Shown: positions 29,400 to 53,930 of the stretch, one piece after another | Numbering within the stretch: the stretch's first letter is position 1 | Layout of the letters: every line of letters starts with the position of its first letter | Source: Bacteroidaceae bacterium | Lineage (GTDB): Bacteria; Bacteroidota; Bacteroidia; Bacteroidales; Bacteroidaceae | NCBI GenBank assembly: GCA_024398495.1 | Contig: JAKSJA010000010.1 | Location: 1-53,930 of the forward strand | Reading direction: 5' to 3' | Length of the DNA stretch: 53,930 nt | Notes under the pieces: generated by a model | The model's database searches: none | What the model was told of the DNA's origin: nothing | What the model saw: the letters and a program-made list of their open reading frames with translations, nothing else | Program-made: the position numbers and the translations under genes

Positions 29400-29642
29400 A
29401 AAAACTCAAAAAAACTACCAACTCTAAACTTTCGACTCTAAACATTAAAACCTCTCACAAATAAAATTTAACCTCTCGCAGAGTAACAACGGGAATACAG
29501 TTGGTAGCTCTGTCAAATGTGATAGTAACTATTGTAAAATCTCTGCACGGCAATCACAGATTGCGTACTCCTCTGGAGAGATAGCCCTCTCTTTATCGCA
29601 AGCAAAAGAACATTTAGTACTTTTGCCTCTGCAAGGAACAAA
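29400..29642. repeat. Intergenic stretch with repeat-like remnants
   Basis: No gene is recognisable here. 29403-29450 is rich in ACTCTAAA-type words, related to the AAAGTCTAAAAGTC words inside the gene at 46460-46540. On the minus strand a start-less open stretch runs from about 29650 to a stop at 29529 (translating to ...CDKERAISPEEYAICDCRAEILQ), and another frame is open from about 29535 to 29465 (FDRATNCIPVVTLREVKFYL). I recall similar translated strings from Bacteroidales intergenic repeats, so this looks like a repeated element rather than a gene. Confidence 0.4.
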
Positions 29643-42947: not shown

Positions 42948-45900
42948 ATGAACAGAATACGTATTCTTTTCCTCTGCTGTCTGTGGGCAATAAGCCTGTC
43001 GGCACAAGTCGTGGACCATCAACGTATGGAACGTATCTACGAGGAAGCAAAGACTCCTTATAAATATGGTCTTGTCATTGCACCGCAGGACAACAAACAT
43101 AAATACGACTGTCCTACCGTCTTCCGCGAGAAGGACAAATGGTATATGACCTTTGTCTGTTACGATGGTAAGGGAGGTAACGATGGCAGAGGGTATGAGA
43201 CATGGTTGGCAGAAAGTGACGACCTTCTACATTGGAACATCTTGGGACGTATTCTTGAATTTCCTTCTACCCCATCAACATTATGGGATGCCAACCAACG
43301 TGGTGGTTTCCCTGCACTCATCGATTATGAATGGAATGGCTCGTACAAGATGGGGAAGTACAAAGGTGCGCATTGGATGACGTACATTGGAGGCAACGGA
43401 ACTGGCTATGAGGCTGTGCAGTCGCCTTTGAGCGTAGGATTGGCATCAACGAAGAAAGACATAACAAAACCGCATCCATGGCAATGTCTTCCACATCCTG
43501 TCATCAGTTATGCTGACGATGATGCACAATGGTGGGAACAACTGACACAGTACAAGAGTACTATATATAAAGTAGATAAGAAATACTTTGGTCATCCTTT
43601 CGTCATGTTCTACAACGCTGGAGGAAAGGATGCAACGCATCCAAAGGGTGAACGTATTGGGATTGCCTTGTCTGACGACATGCTTCATTGGACTCGTTTC
43701 AAGGGCAACCCTGTCTTTGCACACGATTCTGACGGTACGATAACTGGCGATGCACAGATTGTACGGATGGGAGACATCTTTGTAATGTTTTATTTCTCTG
43801 CTTTCAACCCAACAAGGAAATATAACGCTTACAATACGTTTGCAGCAAGTCACGACCTTATTCATTGGACAGACTGGGATGGTGATGACCTCATAATACC
43901 GTCCAAGCCGTATGACGAGATGTTTGCACACAAGAGTTATGTTGTCAAGCATGATGGCATAGTATATCATTTCTATTGTGCCGTCAATAATGATGGTCAG
44001 AGGGGTATCGCCGTTGCCACCAGCCGACATCTCGGCAAAAGCGAGGTATCCTTCCCTACCCCTGACCCTACCGGACATCGCATCACGATGTCGCTCGACA
44101 AGGACTGGGAGATAATTTCCGACAATCCTGCTATCAATAATAATGGTCTCCTACACGGGAAAAACATGGTCGATGTACCTTTCAACCTTGACGACTACTT
44201 CGGAGCATTACAGAAAGAACATGGCAACCTGCATGGCTCCGTCACATGTCGAAAAGAGTTTTTCCTTGAAGGCACTGACAACAAGGAGTATTTTATAAAC
44301 TTCGAAGGAGTCGGCACGTATGCAGCCATAGAACTAAACGGACATAATCTCGGTACTTACGACATAGGACGAACTTGTGAGTGCATTGACATCACGAAAT
44401 TCGTTCATCTCAACGACACGAACACAATCATTCTCAACATCTCTCATCCTGAAGGCATCACCGACATGCCGTGGGTATGTGGCGGATGCAGTAGCGAATG
44501 GGGGTTCTCAGAAGGGTCACAACCTTTCGGCATCTTCCGTCCTGTCACCCTCGAAGTCACAGACAAGGTACGCATCGAACCATTTGGAGTTCATGTGTGG
44601 AGCAACAACAATTGCGACAGCCTGTTCATTGAAACCGAGATAAAAAACTATGACAGTAAGGAAATAATTTCATCACTTGTAACAAAACTTTCTGACGCTA
44701 CAGGCAGACAGGTAATACGTCTCACTGATGAATTTTCACTACTACCCGGCGAGACGAAGATCATCCGTCAGCAGGCTTCTTTAACCAACAACAACCTCTC
44801 AGTTCTCAGCTCTCAGCTCTCAGCTCTCACCCCAATACATCTATGGTCTGTTGCAGAGCCATACCTTTACAAGGTAAACAGCATCATCAAGCGTAATGGT
44901 AAGGCTACTGACAGTCAGGACACACCATTTGGTTTCAGGACTGTCTCATGGCCTAAGTCCAGCATACGGCAGACATCAGACGATAAACGTTTTCTGCTGA
45001 ACAACAAACCTGTATTCATCAATGGAGTATGCGAATATGAACATATCTTTGGACAAAGTCATGCCTTCACTCACGAACAGATAGAGACACGAATCAAAGA
45101 AGTGCAGCAAGCTGGTTTCAATGCTTTTAGAGATGCCCACCAGCCACACAATCTGCACTACAAGACACTTCTCGACAGGGAAGGCATACTATGGTGGGCA
45201 CAGTTCTCTGCCCATATATGGTACGACACCCCGAAGTTCCGCGAGAGTTTCAAAAGACACTTACGCCAATGGGTGAAAGAACGCAGGAACTCACCATCAT
45301 TGGTACTGTGGGGATTACAGAATGAAAGCACCCTGCCGAAAGACTTTGCAGAGGAGTGTACTCAGATAATACGCGATATGGACCCAACCTGTGGCAGTCA
45401 GCGTCTCGTCACCACCTGCAACGGTGGCGAGGGCACGGATTGGAATGTGGTACAAAACTGGAGTGGCACATACGGTGGCGACATCGAAAAATATGCTACC
45501 GAACTAAAACAAGACGAGCAGTTGCTTAACGGCGAATATGGTGCATGGCGCACCATAGGCAACCATACCGGTGAGGGTTATACCGAAGAAAAATATCTCA
45601 ACATCTTGAAGAGAAAGGTAGAACTGGCAGAGTGTGCCAAGGACAGTGTATGCGGGCAATTCTTGTGGTTGCTCAACAGTCATGACAATCCGGGACGCAG
45701 ACAACCAGACGAAGCACTTCGACGCATTGACAAGGTTGGACCATTCAACTACAAAGGACTATTTACCATCTGGGAACAACCAGTAGATGCATTCTATTGG
45801 TATAAAGAGAGAGAAGACTCAACCATAACCGTACAACCGTACAACCGTATAACCGCAAAACCTCATAACCGCAAAAAAGTCCTCTACCGTGTCAACTGCG

Positions 45901-47030
45901 GTGGCGATGAATATATCGATGACGACGGCAACCGTTGGGAACAAGACCACTCCAAGAGAAAAGCCTACCCCCAGCCCCTCCCAAAAGGAGGGGAGCAGAA
46001 AGTCCTTTCCTTCGGGGAGGATTTAGGAGAGGCTCCTCATTCTTTCTACAGCCACTCATGGGGCGACAGGTTCGATGGAGTCAGCTCATATCAATGTTCA
46101 CAGACTTACAACCCAGAACTACCATTGTCACCATTGTTCCAGAGAAGTCGTTTCGGACGTCATGAACTCTATTACCATTTCGATGCACCTCGCGGAGACT
46201 ATCAGATAGAACTCTATTTCACCGAGCCATGGTACAAAGGCACTATTGACGACTCCGACTATGAAGGATGGCGACTGTTTGATGTAGCTGTCAACGACAG
46301 TACTGTATTGCACGACATAGATATATGGTCACAAGTGGGCTACGGGCGCGTCTATAAGCATATAATAAACTTTCATAACGATACTGACCATATAAAGATT
46401 TCATTCCCGAAAGTTAAATCCGGACAGGCGATAATCTCAGCAATAGCAATAGCCAATCTCAAAAAGTCAAAGAGTTTAAAAGTCAAAGAGTCTAAAAGTC
46501 AAAGAGTCAAAAAGTCTAAAAGTCTAAGAGTCGAAAACTCACAGACCCCTCAGACCCCTCAGACCTCACAGACCCCTCAGACCTCTCAGACCCCTCAGAC
46601 TCTCAGCTCTCAGCTCTCCTGGTCCTCTTTCGACAACGACATCCTCGTCAAGACACCAGACTCACTCCTGCCACCAAAGACATCCAAAGCCATCGAAGTG
46701 GAAGCCTCAAGGCCTCTCACCTCTCACCTCTCACCTCTCAGCTCTCAGCTCTCTTGGACCTTCTCTGTCGGCGTAGCAAAGATATACTCCCTGCGATTCA
46801 AATACTGGAATGGTGAGAAACCACGCAAACTGCATGTCACCATCACCGACCAGAATGGAGTCCGTTATGTCGATGACGACATCAGTTTTCTTCAAACACA
46901 GGCAGCAAAGAAAAAACGCAAGACGACAAGTATCACCACAGGTGGCTATGTCAATGCAGGAACATACCATGTCACCCTCACTGGCGAAGGTATAGACAAG
47001 ATGATTTTTGACAAACTTACGATAGAATGA
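42948..47030 (+). CDS. GH137-GH2-like fusion with malectin domain and in-frame repeats
   Basis: A 1360-aa exported protein (signal MNRIRILFLCCLWAISLSA). Residues ~20-362 form a five-bladed propeller (YDCPTVFREKDKWYMTFVCYDG...) like GH43/GH137. Residues ~385-945 are a GH2 enzyme: sugar-binding domain, Ig-like domain, and a barrel with acid/base Glu793 (WGLQNESTLP) and nucleophile Glu863 (LNGEYGAW). A malectin-like domain spans ~978-1168, then a C-terminal beta domain. The order matches BT0996, remembered as GH137 arabinofuranosidase plus GH2 glucuronidase in RG-II breakdown. Six low-complexity segments, all resembling intergenic repeats, interrupt the coding sequence in frame. Confidence 0.75.
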   Translation: MNRIRILFLCCLWAISLSAQVVDHQRMERIYEEAKTPYKYGLVIAPQDNKHKYDCPTVFREKDKWYMTFVCYDGKGGNDGRGYETWLAESDDLLHWNILGRILEFPSTPSTLWDANQRGGFPALIDYEWNGSYKMGKYKGAHWMTYIGGNGTGYEAVQSPLSVGLASTKKDITKPHPWQCLPHPVISYADDDAQWWEQLTQYKSTIYKVDKKYFGHPFVMFYNAGGKDATHPKGERIGIALSDDMLHWTRFKGNPVFAHDSDGTITGDAQIVRMGDIFVMFYFSAFNPTRKYNAYNTFAASHDLIHWTDWDGDDLIIPSKPYDEMFAHKSYVVKHDGIVYHFYCAVNNDGQRGIAVATSRHLGKSEVSFPTPDPTGHRITMSLDKDWEIISDNPAINNNGLLHGKNMVDVPFNLDDYFGALQKEHGNLHGSVTCRKEFFLEGTDNKEYFINFEGVGTYAAIELNGHNLGTYDIGRTCECIDITKFVHLNDTNTIILNISHPEGITDMPWVCGGCSSEWGFSEGSQPFGIFRPVTLEVTDKVRIEPFGVHVWSNNNCDSLFIETEIKNYDSKEIISSLVTKLSDATGRQVIRLTDEFSLLPGETKIIRQQASLTNNNLSVLSSQLSALTPIHLWSVAEPYLYKVNSIIKRNGKATDSQDTPFGFRTVSWPKSSIRQTSDDKRFLLNNKPVFINGVCEYEHIFGQSHAFTHEQIETRIKEVQQAGFNAFRDAHQPHNLHYKTLLDREGILWWAQFSAHIWYDTPKFRESFKRHLRQWVKERRNSPSLVLWGLQNESTLPKDFAEECTQIIRDMDPTCGSQRLVTTCNGGEGTDWNVVQNWSGTYGGDIEKYATELKQDEQLLNGEYGAWRTIGNHTGEGYTEEKYLNILKRKVELAECAKDSVCGQFLWLLNSHDNPGRRQPDEALRRIDKVGPFNYKGLFTIWEQPVDAFYWYKEREDSTITVQPYNRITAKPHNRKKVLYRVNCGGDEYIDDDGNRWEQDHSKRKAYPQPLPKGGEQKVLSFGEDLGEAPHSFYSHSWGDRFDGVSSYQCSQTYNPELPLSPLFQRSRFGRHELYYHFDAPRGDYQIELYFTEPWYKGTIDDSDYEGWRLFDVAVNDSTVLHDIDIWSQVGYGRVYKHIINFHNDTDHIKISFPKVKSGQAIISAIAIANLKKSKSLKVKESKSQRVKKSKSLRVENSQTPQTPQTSQTPQTSQTPQTLSSQLSWSSFDNDILVKTPDSLLPPKTSKAIEVEASRPLTSHLSPLSSQLSWTFSVGVAKIYSLRFKYWNGEKPRKLHVTITDQNGVRYVDDDISFLQTQAAKKKRKTTSITTGGYVNAGTYHVTLTGEGIDKMIFDKLTIE
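44794..44832 (+). repeat. In-frame CTCTCAG repeat, copy in GH2 Ig-like region
   Basis: Tandem CTCAGCT/CTCAG units code for SVLSSQLSALTP at residues ~616-629 of the GH137-GH2-like protein. The same word recurs at 46600-46618 and 46735-46754. Confidence 0.75.
45821..45876 (+). repeat. In-frame ACCGTACA-type repeat
   Basis: Units of AACCGTACAACCGTATAACCG type code for TVQPYNRITAKPHNRKK (residues ~958-977), just between the GH2 barrel and the malectin domain. The same words lie in non-coding DNA at 47878-47908 and 47974-47988. Confidence 0.78.
45962..46036 (+). repeat. In-frame REP-like palindromic element
   Basis: CCCCTCC-CAAAA-GGAGGGG forms a strong stem-loop, followed by a second G-rich part (TTCGGGGAGGATTTAGGAG). 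It codes for KAYPQPLPKGGEQKVLSFGE (residues ~1005-1030) and splits the malectin-like domain. I recall near-identical palindromic elements as common intergenic repeats in Bacteroidota. Confidence 0.75.
46460..46618 (+). repeat. In-frame AAGTCTAAAAGTC and CAGACCCCT repeats
   Basis: 46460-46540 repeats AAAGAGTCTAAAAGTC-type words (KSKSLKVKESKSQRVKKSKS); 46541-46618 repeats CAGACCCCT/CAGACCTCT words (TPQTPQTSQTPQT) and ends in CTCTCAG units. Both lie at residues ~1171-1224 between the malectin and the last domain. Confidence 0.78.
46712..46754 (+). repeat. In-frame CTCTCACCT/CTCTCAG repeat
   Basis: CTCTCACCT units then CTCTCAGCT units code for RPLTSHLSPLSSQLSW, residues ~1255-1269. The SSQLSW ending duplicates that at residue ~1223. 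Confidence 0.75.
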
Positions 47031-47824: not shown

Positions 47825-48018
47825 AGCTGAGAGGAGGCTTCGCCTACGATAACGATACGCTGACGCTACGATAACGAAAACCGTACAACCGCAAAACCGC
47901 ACAACCGACGCCAAACCGAGAGCAATCAAGTAAACTTGAATTGCCGAGGTGCGAAGGAGGAAGACCGAAAGGTCAACCGTATAACCGTAATACTCACGTT
48001 CGGATTTTTTCAAATGAA
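47825..48018. repeat. Intergenic cluster of short repeat families
   Basis: No gene. It holds CTACGATAACGATACG-type words around AGGCTTCGCCT (47836-47873), ACCGTACAACCGCAAAACCG words (47878-47908), a CAAGT-AA-ACTTG stem (47927-47938), a GACC-GAAA-GGTC tetraloop stem (47962-47973), and CAACCGTATAACCG (47974-47987). The ACCG words match those inside the coding sequence at 45821-45876. Confidence 0.6.
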
Positions 48019-53219: not shown

Positions 53220-53238
53220 AATCAAAAAAAGACAAGCA

Positions 53239-53502
53239 ACCGCAATTGCAGATGTTAGTACCCCTAAATGCTGATGTCAGCAGCTGCAAATGTTGATGTT
53301 AGCTACCGCAATTGATGATGTGTACAACCACTATTGGAAATACGAATGTACATAGTTGGAAGTACGACCAACCACTGTTGGAAATACGAATGTGCATAGT
53401 TGGAAGTACGACCAACCACTATTGAAAATACAAATGACCATTGTTGGTCGTTTATGTGTACTTAGTTGAAAGTACGAGTGCACCAAGTTGACTTTATCAT
53501 TG
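53239..53502. repeat. 22-bp phased repeat array, twelve units
   Basis: Twelve successive units, each 22 bp (the first counted from 53239), all with (A/T)TG at positions 8-10. Units 1-4 continue with GATGT-type words; units 5-12 mostly with GGAA.TACGA. Two alternating variants occur (ACCACTATTGGAAATACGA... and TACATAGTTGGAAGTACGA...), giving a near-perfect 44-bp period at 53327-53414. No spacers and, as 22 is not a multiple of 3, not coding. Confidence 0.85.
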
Positions 53503-53767
53503 ACACAAGAACTCGTGTAAAGAATGTTTATCTTATCCGCCACCAAAAACTCTGCGTAGCACCGACAAGTTGCGCCTCTGCCCTCTGCGTACAAAATTTA
53601 TGAATCTGCGTCAGCAGTCGTGAAGAAGAACAGATATCAATAATAAATGTATTTACATTATTGTGGCTGTTATTATTCACGGAAGTTCATAGAACCATAA
53701 ATTTTGCTCTGCGAGAGACTTAACACCTTGCGAGCAGATTTCGATTTCAACACTTCATATAGTTTTT
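53503..53767. other. Non-coding stretch between the two 22-bp arrays
   Basis: No gene seen. It contains CTCTGCGT words repeated near 53548-53615 and a near-perfect inverted repeat AATAAATGTA-TT-TACATTATT (53643-53662). Otherwise A/T-rich without clear promoter or terminator. Confidence 0.4.
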
Positions 53768-53930
53768 GTCAAAACGACGTGAAGATGTTGTTGAAATGAC
53801 GCGTTGACAAATTCTTTATGAAGATGTGGATAAAACTACGTGAAGAGTTACTAAAAACTTTATGAAGAGTTGGACAATTCTTTATGAAGAGTTGACCATT
53901 TCTTTGTGACGAGTTTGTCACTTCTTTTTG
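53768..53930. repeat. Second 22-bp phased array, running off the window
   Basis: TGAAG (or TGACG) recurs at 53819, 53841, 53863, 53885 and 53907, exactly 22 bp apart, inside units like ACAATTCTTTATGAAGAGTTG. A diverged unit with TGAAG at 53780 lies out of phase upstream. Sequence differs from the first array but the period is the same. The array is cut by the window end. Confidence 0.82.

Follow-up and report, generated by a model that had tools for sequence, protein, structure and literature searches.

The DNA analysed here (hereafter the window) is a stretch of 53,930 nucleotides that makes up an entire contig (C2) of a Bacteroidaceae metagenome-assembled genome (MAG) of 1.43 Mb in 37 contigs, 62.7% complete. 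Its forward strand carries, at 42948..47030, a glycoside hydrolase (GH) gene with Pfam GH2 and Malectin domains, and residues 2-373 of its 1360-residue product match PDB 5mt2; from this match we take this part to be a GH137 domain. The frame of 1360 codons has no internal stop and stays open across every repeat segment within it. TRF located arrays in the gene at 44796-44829 (CTCTCAG), 45827-45876 (AACCGTAN), 46462-46532 (AAGTC unit), 46542-46606 (CAGACCCCT), 46594-46618 and 46713-46753 (CTCTCA). The segments that they mark, all on the forward strand, are a CTCTCAG heptad insert of 15 residues (44790..44834), a AACCGTAN octad segment at the linker near residue 955 (45821..45882), a succession of AAGTC, CAGACCCCT and CTCTCAG arrays at the 1171 linker (46459..46620) and CTCTCA heptads at the 1257 linker (46711..46754). 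A palindromic element of 30 residues, which we call R1, lies within the malectin domain (45957..46046, forward strand; model match 45960-46036). The original prediction that repeats of several families share one open frame, and that one of them splits the malectin domain, is thus confirmed.

The words concerned are far above chance in the window. CTCTCANCTCTCA, allowing at most one mismatch, occurs 11 times, always within the GH gene (mean 0.32 and maximum 3 in 100 shuffles), and ACCGNANAACCG occurs 7 times (shuffle mean 0.06, maximum 2), three of them in the gene and four at 47880-47987. Copies in nearby non-coding DNA had been claimed at two places. The four ACCGNANAACCG matches support the first, where TRF also reports units of ACGATACG type mixed with AACCGNAN in one intergenic block (47844..47907, forward strand); the second, at 29403-29450, is a degenerate stretch with no clean copy of a family from the GH gene.

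We compared the protein with its homologues, the nearest of which in a named GH search is from Candidatus Equicola stercoris (L076; best segment 92%), a name that suggests a horse-gut origin. The CTCTCAG segment (residues ~615-629) and the 30-residue palindrome segment (~1004-1033) both fall in gaps in all 25 aligned homologues, three of which (L026-L028) have an unrelated 6-residue insert at the palindrome position. The absence of R1 was read from this alignment, from part of the rows of a 57-locus set (L108 being left out as short) and from four further rows. At ~955 the repeat occupies the place of a segment of ~100 residues that is present in many homologues, and at ~1257 many have a longer unrelated segment. 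Because many homologues carry longer unrelated segments at these two positions, we regard them as cases of linker replacement or shift and not of simple insertion. The ~100-residue segment, which follows the GH2 barrel and is missing at 45820-45885 of the window (residues ~955-980), is also missing from L006, L011 and L013. The linker at ~1171 is short in most homologues, and in some it holds other repeat-like peptides, namely palindrome-like ones in L006, L077 and L094, AACACTC heptads in L088, AAAGACCCT nonads in L092 and L109 and AATTCACA in L130; thus the GH linkers gather different repeats in different lineages.

The comparison with L076 is closer, since its DNA is 93.3% identical to the window gene over the aligned part. 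The alignment has four gaps (51, 30, 36 and 3 nt); every length is a multiple of three, and each gap lies within a repeat segment or at its edge. The 36 nt are a copy-number difference at the 1171 linker. The two species share the CTCTCAG insert, and the malectin R1 is letter-for-letter identical over the stretch compared. At the 955 linker the window has AACCGTAN and L076 has half a palindrome, CTCTCAG and CAGACCTCT, and at the 1257 linker CTCTCA in the window faces AACCG units in L076. Outside the repeats the two genes differ at 190 of 1229 codons; 151 of these changes are synonymous and 39 nonsynonymous, so that the GH gene looks maintained. Inside the repeats the differences number 35 in 117 aligned codons, with 31 nonsynonymous, a count that includes the swapped, non-homologous segments. 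It had been expected that other species would lack the segments at the same places: the distant homologues do lack the two clearest ones, but the sister species shares several, which we take as common descent.

To place these arrays in the context of the MAG, we surveyed 442 kb of it (the window and 20 further stretches), 82% of which was coding by a codon-score gene caller. TRF returned 133 arrays, and rough word matching assigned 46 of them to short-unit families, a few 22-nt arrays being included by chance. Twenty-four of the 46 are intergenic, 16 lie in called genes and 6 at gene edges, counts that are rough inasmuch as the caller missed a PrmC frame found by eye. The words do occur between genes. 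Five of the 16 genic arrays are in the GH gene, and the hosts of the other 11 include NAD kinase, a TamB-like gene with two arrays, an OmpA/PD40/TPR gene with two, an ATP-grasp gene, an epimerase-family gene, three genes that carry the array near their C-termini, and pheT. The last was rejected as an array insertion because its relatives have a loop of about equal length (rows L239, L244 and L248 of this alignment were wrong-frame picks and were ignored).

The same families, CTCTCAN, AACCGNAN, GTCAACN, AAGTC and CAGACCCCT, recur both between genes and in frame within genes, also as composite blocks. A composite related to that at 47844..47907 is in frame in a TamB-like gene (L171), and CTCTCAG-related arrays are intergenic at L174:5042 and L162:16921, clean CTCTCAG being absent from the non-coding DNA of the window. 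Across the genus CTCTCANCTCTCANCTCTC was found in 34 of 80 genomes; the reversed pattern is uninformative as a control for this count, because it matches the same heptads. With one locus taken per genome and our own excluded, 15 of 29 loci are flanked in the open frame by 80 or more residues on either side; among the hosts are relatives of MnmA and TatD with loops longer than in the solved homologues. The orientation of CTCTCA arrays was rejected as evidence, since the open-frame criterion itself forces the orientation of arrays of at least 21 nt. Two further kinds of array were observed. In three different proteins (L163:6752-6780, L166:15802-15830 and L174:2527-2555) GTCAACN heptads encode a short linker that ends 26-28 residues from the C-terminus, in each case directly upstream of a similar YNLQG-type tail. 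The other kind is intergenic, has a repeat period of 22 (or 44) nt with many different unit sequences and is often near contig ends; such arrays were seen in the window at 53235-53930 and at L156:754-899, L158:13631-14101, L159:162-279 and 798-1255, L166:12205-12937 and L172:18108-18495.

A second dispersed element, R2, is intergenic in the window (47902..47980, forward strand) and occurs at three places in the MAG with 99% identity over 76-79 nt, the others being G000:C5:9136-9211 and G000:C12:19324-19402. The last copy is in frame in NAD kinase, which has 37 residues between two aligned blocks where PDB 2an1 has 8, and the DNA of this insert includes the 79-nt R2 stretch. The recurrence of the arrays in composites and beside palindromes suggests that they spread by the copying of blocks, and tandem arrays may possibly have arisen by slippage together with the copying of composite repeat blocks. 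It is quite improbable that replication slippage alone built the repeats in place, with no movement at all. Arrays of period 7 to 9 are indeed prone to slippage, and the sisters have unequal numbers of CAGACCCCT units, a difference of 36 nt, but slippage yields neither R1, R2 and the DUF559 copies described below nor identical unit families at unlinked places, and it leaves the exchange of families at one linker unexplained.

R1 is ~80 nt long, with ends AAGCC..GGCTT and two hairpins beneath an outer stem. We built a covariance model from six copies, among them the malectin copy itself, which the model matches with an E value of 1.4e-18. Run against the MAG with an E threshold of 1, the model found 46 matches counting both strands, and BLAST with R1 alone found 12 at the same threshold, several of them chance-like. 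Among the stronger model matches we examined 18 distinct sites (L176-L193), and found 6 in frame in genes and 12 outside genes. The in-frame hosts are the GH gene (L185), an OmpA/PD40/TPR gene (L178), PrmC (L187) and CapF (L193), and, as named by eye, an ApbE/UPF0280-like gene (L188) and a sugar-phosphate-isomerase-like gene (L190) with R1 just after the N-terminus. PrmC has 35 residues where PDB 4dzr has 11, although the first aligned block is by itself not significant. On average 36% of the six frames of an R1 copy are stop-free. Neither movement nor excision nor a duplicated target site was observed; for the last, the malectin site was compared by eye with homologues of 60-70% identity, which are too distant to serve as a close pair of filled and empty sites. 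Within the genus, 13 of 60 genomes have R1 at E up to 1e-6 with this narrow model, and most genomes have no match.

The R1 match in CapF proved to be the end of a larger relative of the palindrome, which the original prediction had missed. This element is ~420-690 nt long, its ends are the R1-type palindrome in inverted order, and its centre codes for a DUF559 domain (PF04480) of ~105 residues; in CapF two palindrome ends bracket the domain. DUF559 is a family of unknown function of the PD-(D/E)XK/Vsr-like endonuclease type, and its assignment here to the nucleases draws on a match to PDB 3hrl, an 'Endonuclease-Like Protein'. PADLOC returned weak matches only (DpdF), and the free-standing copy L195 also matched a homing endonuclease model (E 2.4e-5). 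DUF559 was found in 36 of 60 genomes of the genus and in 126 of 296 genomes sampled across the phylum, where single genomes have up to 8 matches. Considering as full-length those matches with E of 1.3e-26 or better (65 of the 77 rows of the genus table), 28 of 65 lie in frames of more than 250 residues.

We examined the flanks of DUF559 and found that inverted repeats within 250 nt on either side beat all 20 shuffles at 25 of 30 genus loci (one per genome); in a phylum sample inverted repeats beat 15 shuffles at 22 of 30. A score of at least 18 was reached at 20 of the 30 genus loci as against 2 of 570 random windows from other loci (Fisher p 6e-28), so that 10 of 30 score below 18, and 5 of 30 fail to beat the shuffles. 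Of the 30 DUF559 loci of the genus the R1 model matches 16, and at 30 pheT loci it finds nothing. One end of the DUF559 element at L211 matches the right half, and the other the left half, of R1 copies from this MAG, with 94.7% identity over 38 nt and 94.4% over 36 nt. The terminal inverted repeats of R1 are thus common to a larger coding element, as those of a MITE are, and R1 may be this element with its central part lost, or the element may be R1 that has taken up a gene. The two are weakly associated by genome, DUF559 being present in 11 of 13 genomes with R1 and in 25 of 47 others (p 0.056); the remaining 2 R1 genomes have no DUF559 match, and this partial MAG has one alongside its many R1 copies.

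An alternative is that DUF559 frames and palindromes are independent residents that pile up in permissive places such as intergenic gaps and protein linkers. Unrelated repeats do pile up, for instance in the L076 linker, at L174:5000-5116 and at L307, where GIY-YIG accompanies DUF559. We nevertheless consider this unlikely, because paired inverted palindromes stand right at both edges of the DUF559 frame in 20 of 30 cases against 2 of 570, and because the two ends at L211 match the two halves of R1. At L206:1273-2757 a palindrome-derived peptide, PLPLGGxGVG, is repeated several times between DUF559 and an amino-acid-kinase domain, as if the ends of the element had been duplicated in tandem.

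Pfam analysis of the genus revealed DUF559 in one frame with domains of ABC ATPase, AAA helicase, the amino-acid kinase family, RNase H, IspF, epimerase, guanylate kinase, LeuRS and CapF, and that of the phylum revealed fusions with LeuRS, HsdR, HsdM, type ISP and N6/N4 methylases, MetH and GATase_5; at the phylum locus L288 it gave DUF559 alone. In the guanylate kinase and RNase H frames DUF559 precedes the enzyme domain. In CapF the homology to PDB 2zkl is interrupted at one residue; the insert is absent from four relatives that we fetched, and a further one, G792, carries DUF559 at the identical codon. In LeuRS an R1-like copy (L214) stands at the junction where L287 and, by eye, L290 carry DUF559, and L214 has a DUF559 element at a second site, its gene being interrupted relative to the solved homologue. 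Common descent or the tolerance of a loop may each account for the shared CapF codon and LeuRS junction. No splicing element was apparent around DUF559 in the frames that we read. In an HsdR frame at L307:175-3315 the region from HSDR_N to SWI2/SNF2 contains GIY-YIG as well as DUF559, a hint that further small nucleases may spread as DUF559 does. An assembly error might be suspected because the window belongs to a fragmented metagenome bin (37 contigs, 62.7% complete); this is very improbable, since the separate MAG record L076 has the identical R1 insert over the stretch compared, the frames are open, and in-frame DUF559 also occurs in genomes listed as one contig and 99-100% complete (G314, G478 and G610).

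It is known that short paired palindromes can be dispersed by a RAYT, an IS200-like Y1 transposase, and R1 could accordingly be a classical REP/REPIN with DUF559 as a passenger between two palindromes. PF01797 is indeed present in 22 of 60 genus genomes, this MAG included, and 17 of 30 PF01797 loci have strong inverted repeats of their own. These palindromes, however, differ from R1, many being by eye of a GCCCAGGGC..GCCCTGGGC type; the R1 model, applied with an E threshold of 0.01, matched none of the 30 loci; and PF01797 occurs in 4 of 13 genomes with R1 and in 18 of 47 others (p 0.75). The MAG's own PF01797 locus, L319, runs into a contig end, which leaves only one of its flanks visible. 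With neither model matches nor a genome association, a RAYT as the mover of R1 is disfavoured, and we hold it to be about as unlikely as the independent accumulation considered above. RAYT-like genes between long inverted palindromes of their own kinds were observed at L320, L324, L326, L327 and L339.

We therefore favour, with a probability of roughly 0.6, the reading that R1 is a non-autonomous, MITE- or REPIN-like form of the DUF559 element, that the arrays arise by slippage and block copying, and that a frame filter keeps both. That DUF559 confers mobility and that the inserts are translated are inferences, the candidate role of the nuclease being deduced from its position, its family and its recurring sites. 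The nuclease would drive the spread by cutting at the palindrome or at a target, followed by copying through repair, and R1 would move in trans. Insertions that break a gene would be lost, and those that are stop-free and a multiple of three in length would survive in a loop, a linker or an N-terminus and be translated. Arrays produced by slippage and block copying would be retained by the same frame filter. It is, on balance and by a small margin over even odds, probable that these elements represent a mobile class found throughout the Bacteroidota, a small DUF559 endonuclease gene between inverted palindromic ends together with short non-autonomous derivatives, which enters genes that are conserved and probably essential (LeuRS, guanylate kinase, IspF, MetH) and persists there, unspliced, by read-through translation as part of the host protein. 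The starting observation is confirmed, and its earlier interpretation is partly supported. The core of it, that dispersed repeats entered coding DNA in frame and were kept as tolerated peptide, has support from this gene, from other genes of the MAG and from the genus, while mobility of the arrays goes beyond the evidence.

If this reading is true, the gut Bacteroidota would provide a second and widespread home for coding palindromes, with a candidate mobility enzyme, and a role would be on offer for DUF559. The swapping of repeat families by carbohydrate-active enzyme linkers between sister species bears on the gain of disordered segments in bacterial proteins, and the in-frame copies bear on the annotation of fused 'endonuclease' proteins. 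Our survey of titles and abstract openings, covering few subscription journals, returned nothing linking DUF559 to palindromes and nothing on in-frame repeats in Prevotella. We know of coding palindromes mainly from Rickettsia, and a candidate mobility enzyme for them would, to our knowledge, be the first.

REP/REPIN systems with a RAYT combine short paired palindromes dispersed in a genome with a gene bounded by such palindromes, and the DUF559 element and R1 share both features. They differ in that the gene encodes a DUF559 nuclease, the palindromes are unlike the RAYT-associated ones of the genus, and copies occur in coding sequence. Homing endonucleases, including Vsr-like ones, reside in inteins and introns. 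DUF559 resembles them in being a small nuclease lodged in conserved genes, at sites that may recur (CapF, LeuRS), but we saw no splicing element around it in the frames examined, and the nuclease appears to add residues to the host protein. Within the Bacteroidales, the MITE BrickBuilt of Porphyromonas gingivalis is reported to be always intergenic and to contain a minisatellite (PMC4596501). R1 is likewise non-autonomous with inverted ends, but is shorter and occurs in genes. The Rickettsia palindromic elements (Ogata et al. 2000, 2002), as described in a review (PMC10969869), are dispersed palindromes of ~150 bp found in frame in unrelated genes and also outside genes. R1 differs from these in its length of ~80 nt, in phylum, in having a larger form with a nuclease frame and probably in sequence; like them it is a dispersed palindrome that sits in frame in several unrelated genes, with one reading frame often used repeatedly, as well as outside genes, and it is absent from homologues of the GH protein (25 of 25) and of CapF (4). 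By this analogy R1 would work like the Rickettsia palindromic elements, with a candidate enzyme of its own.
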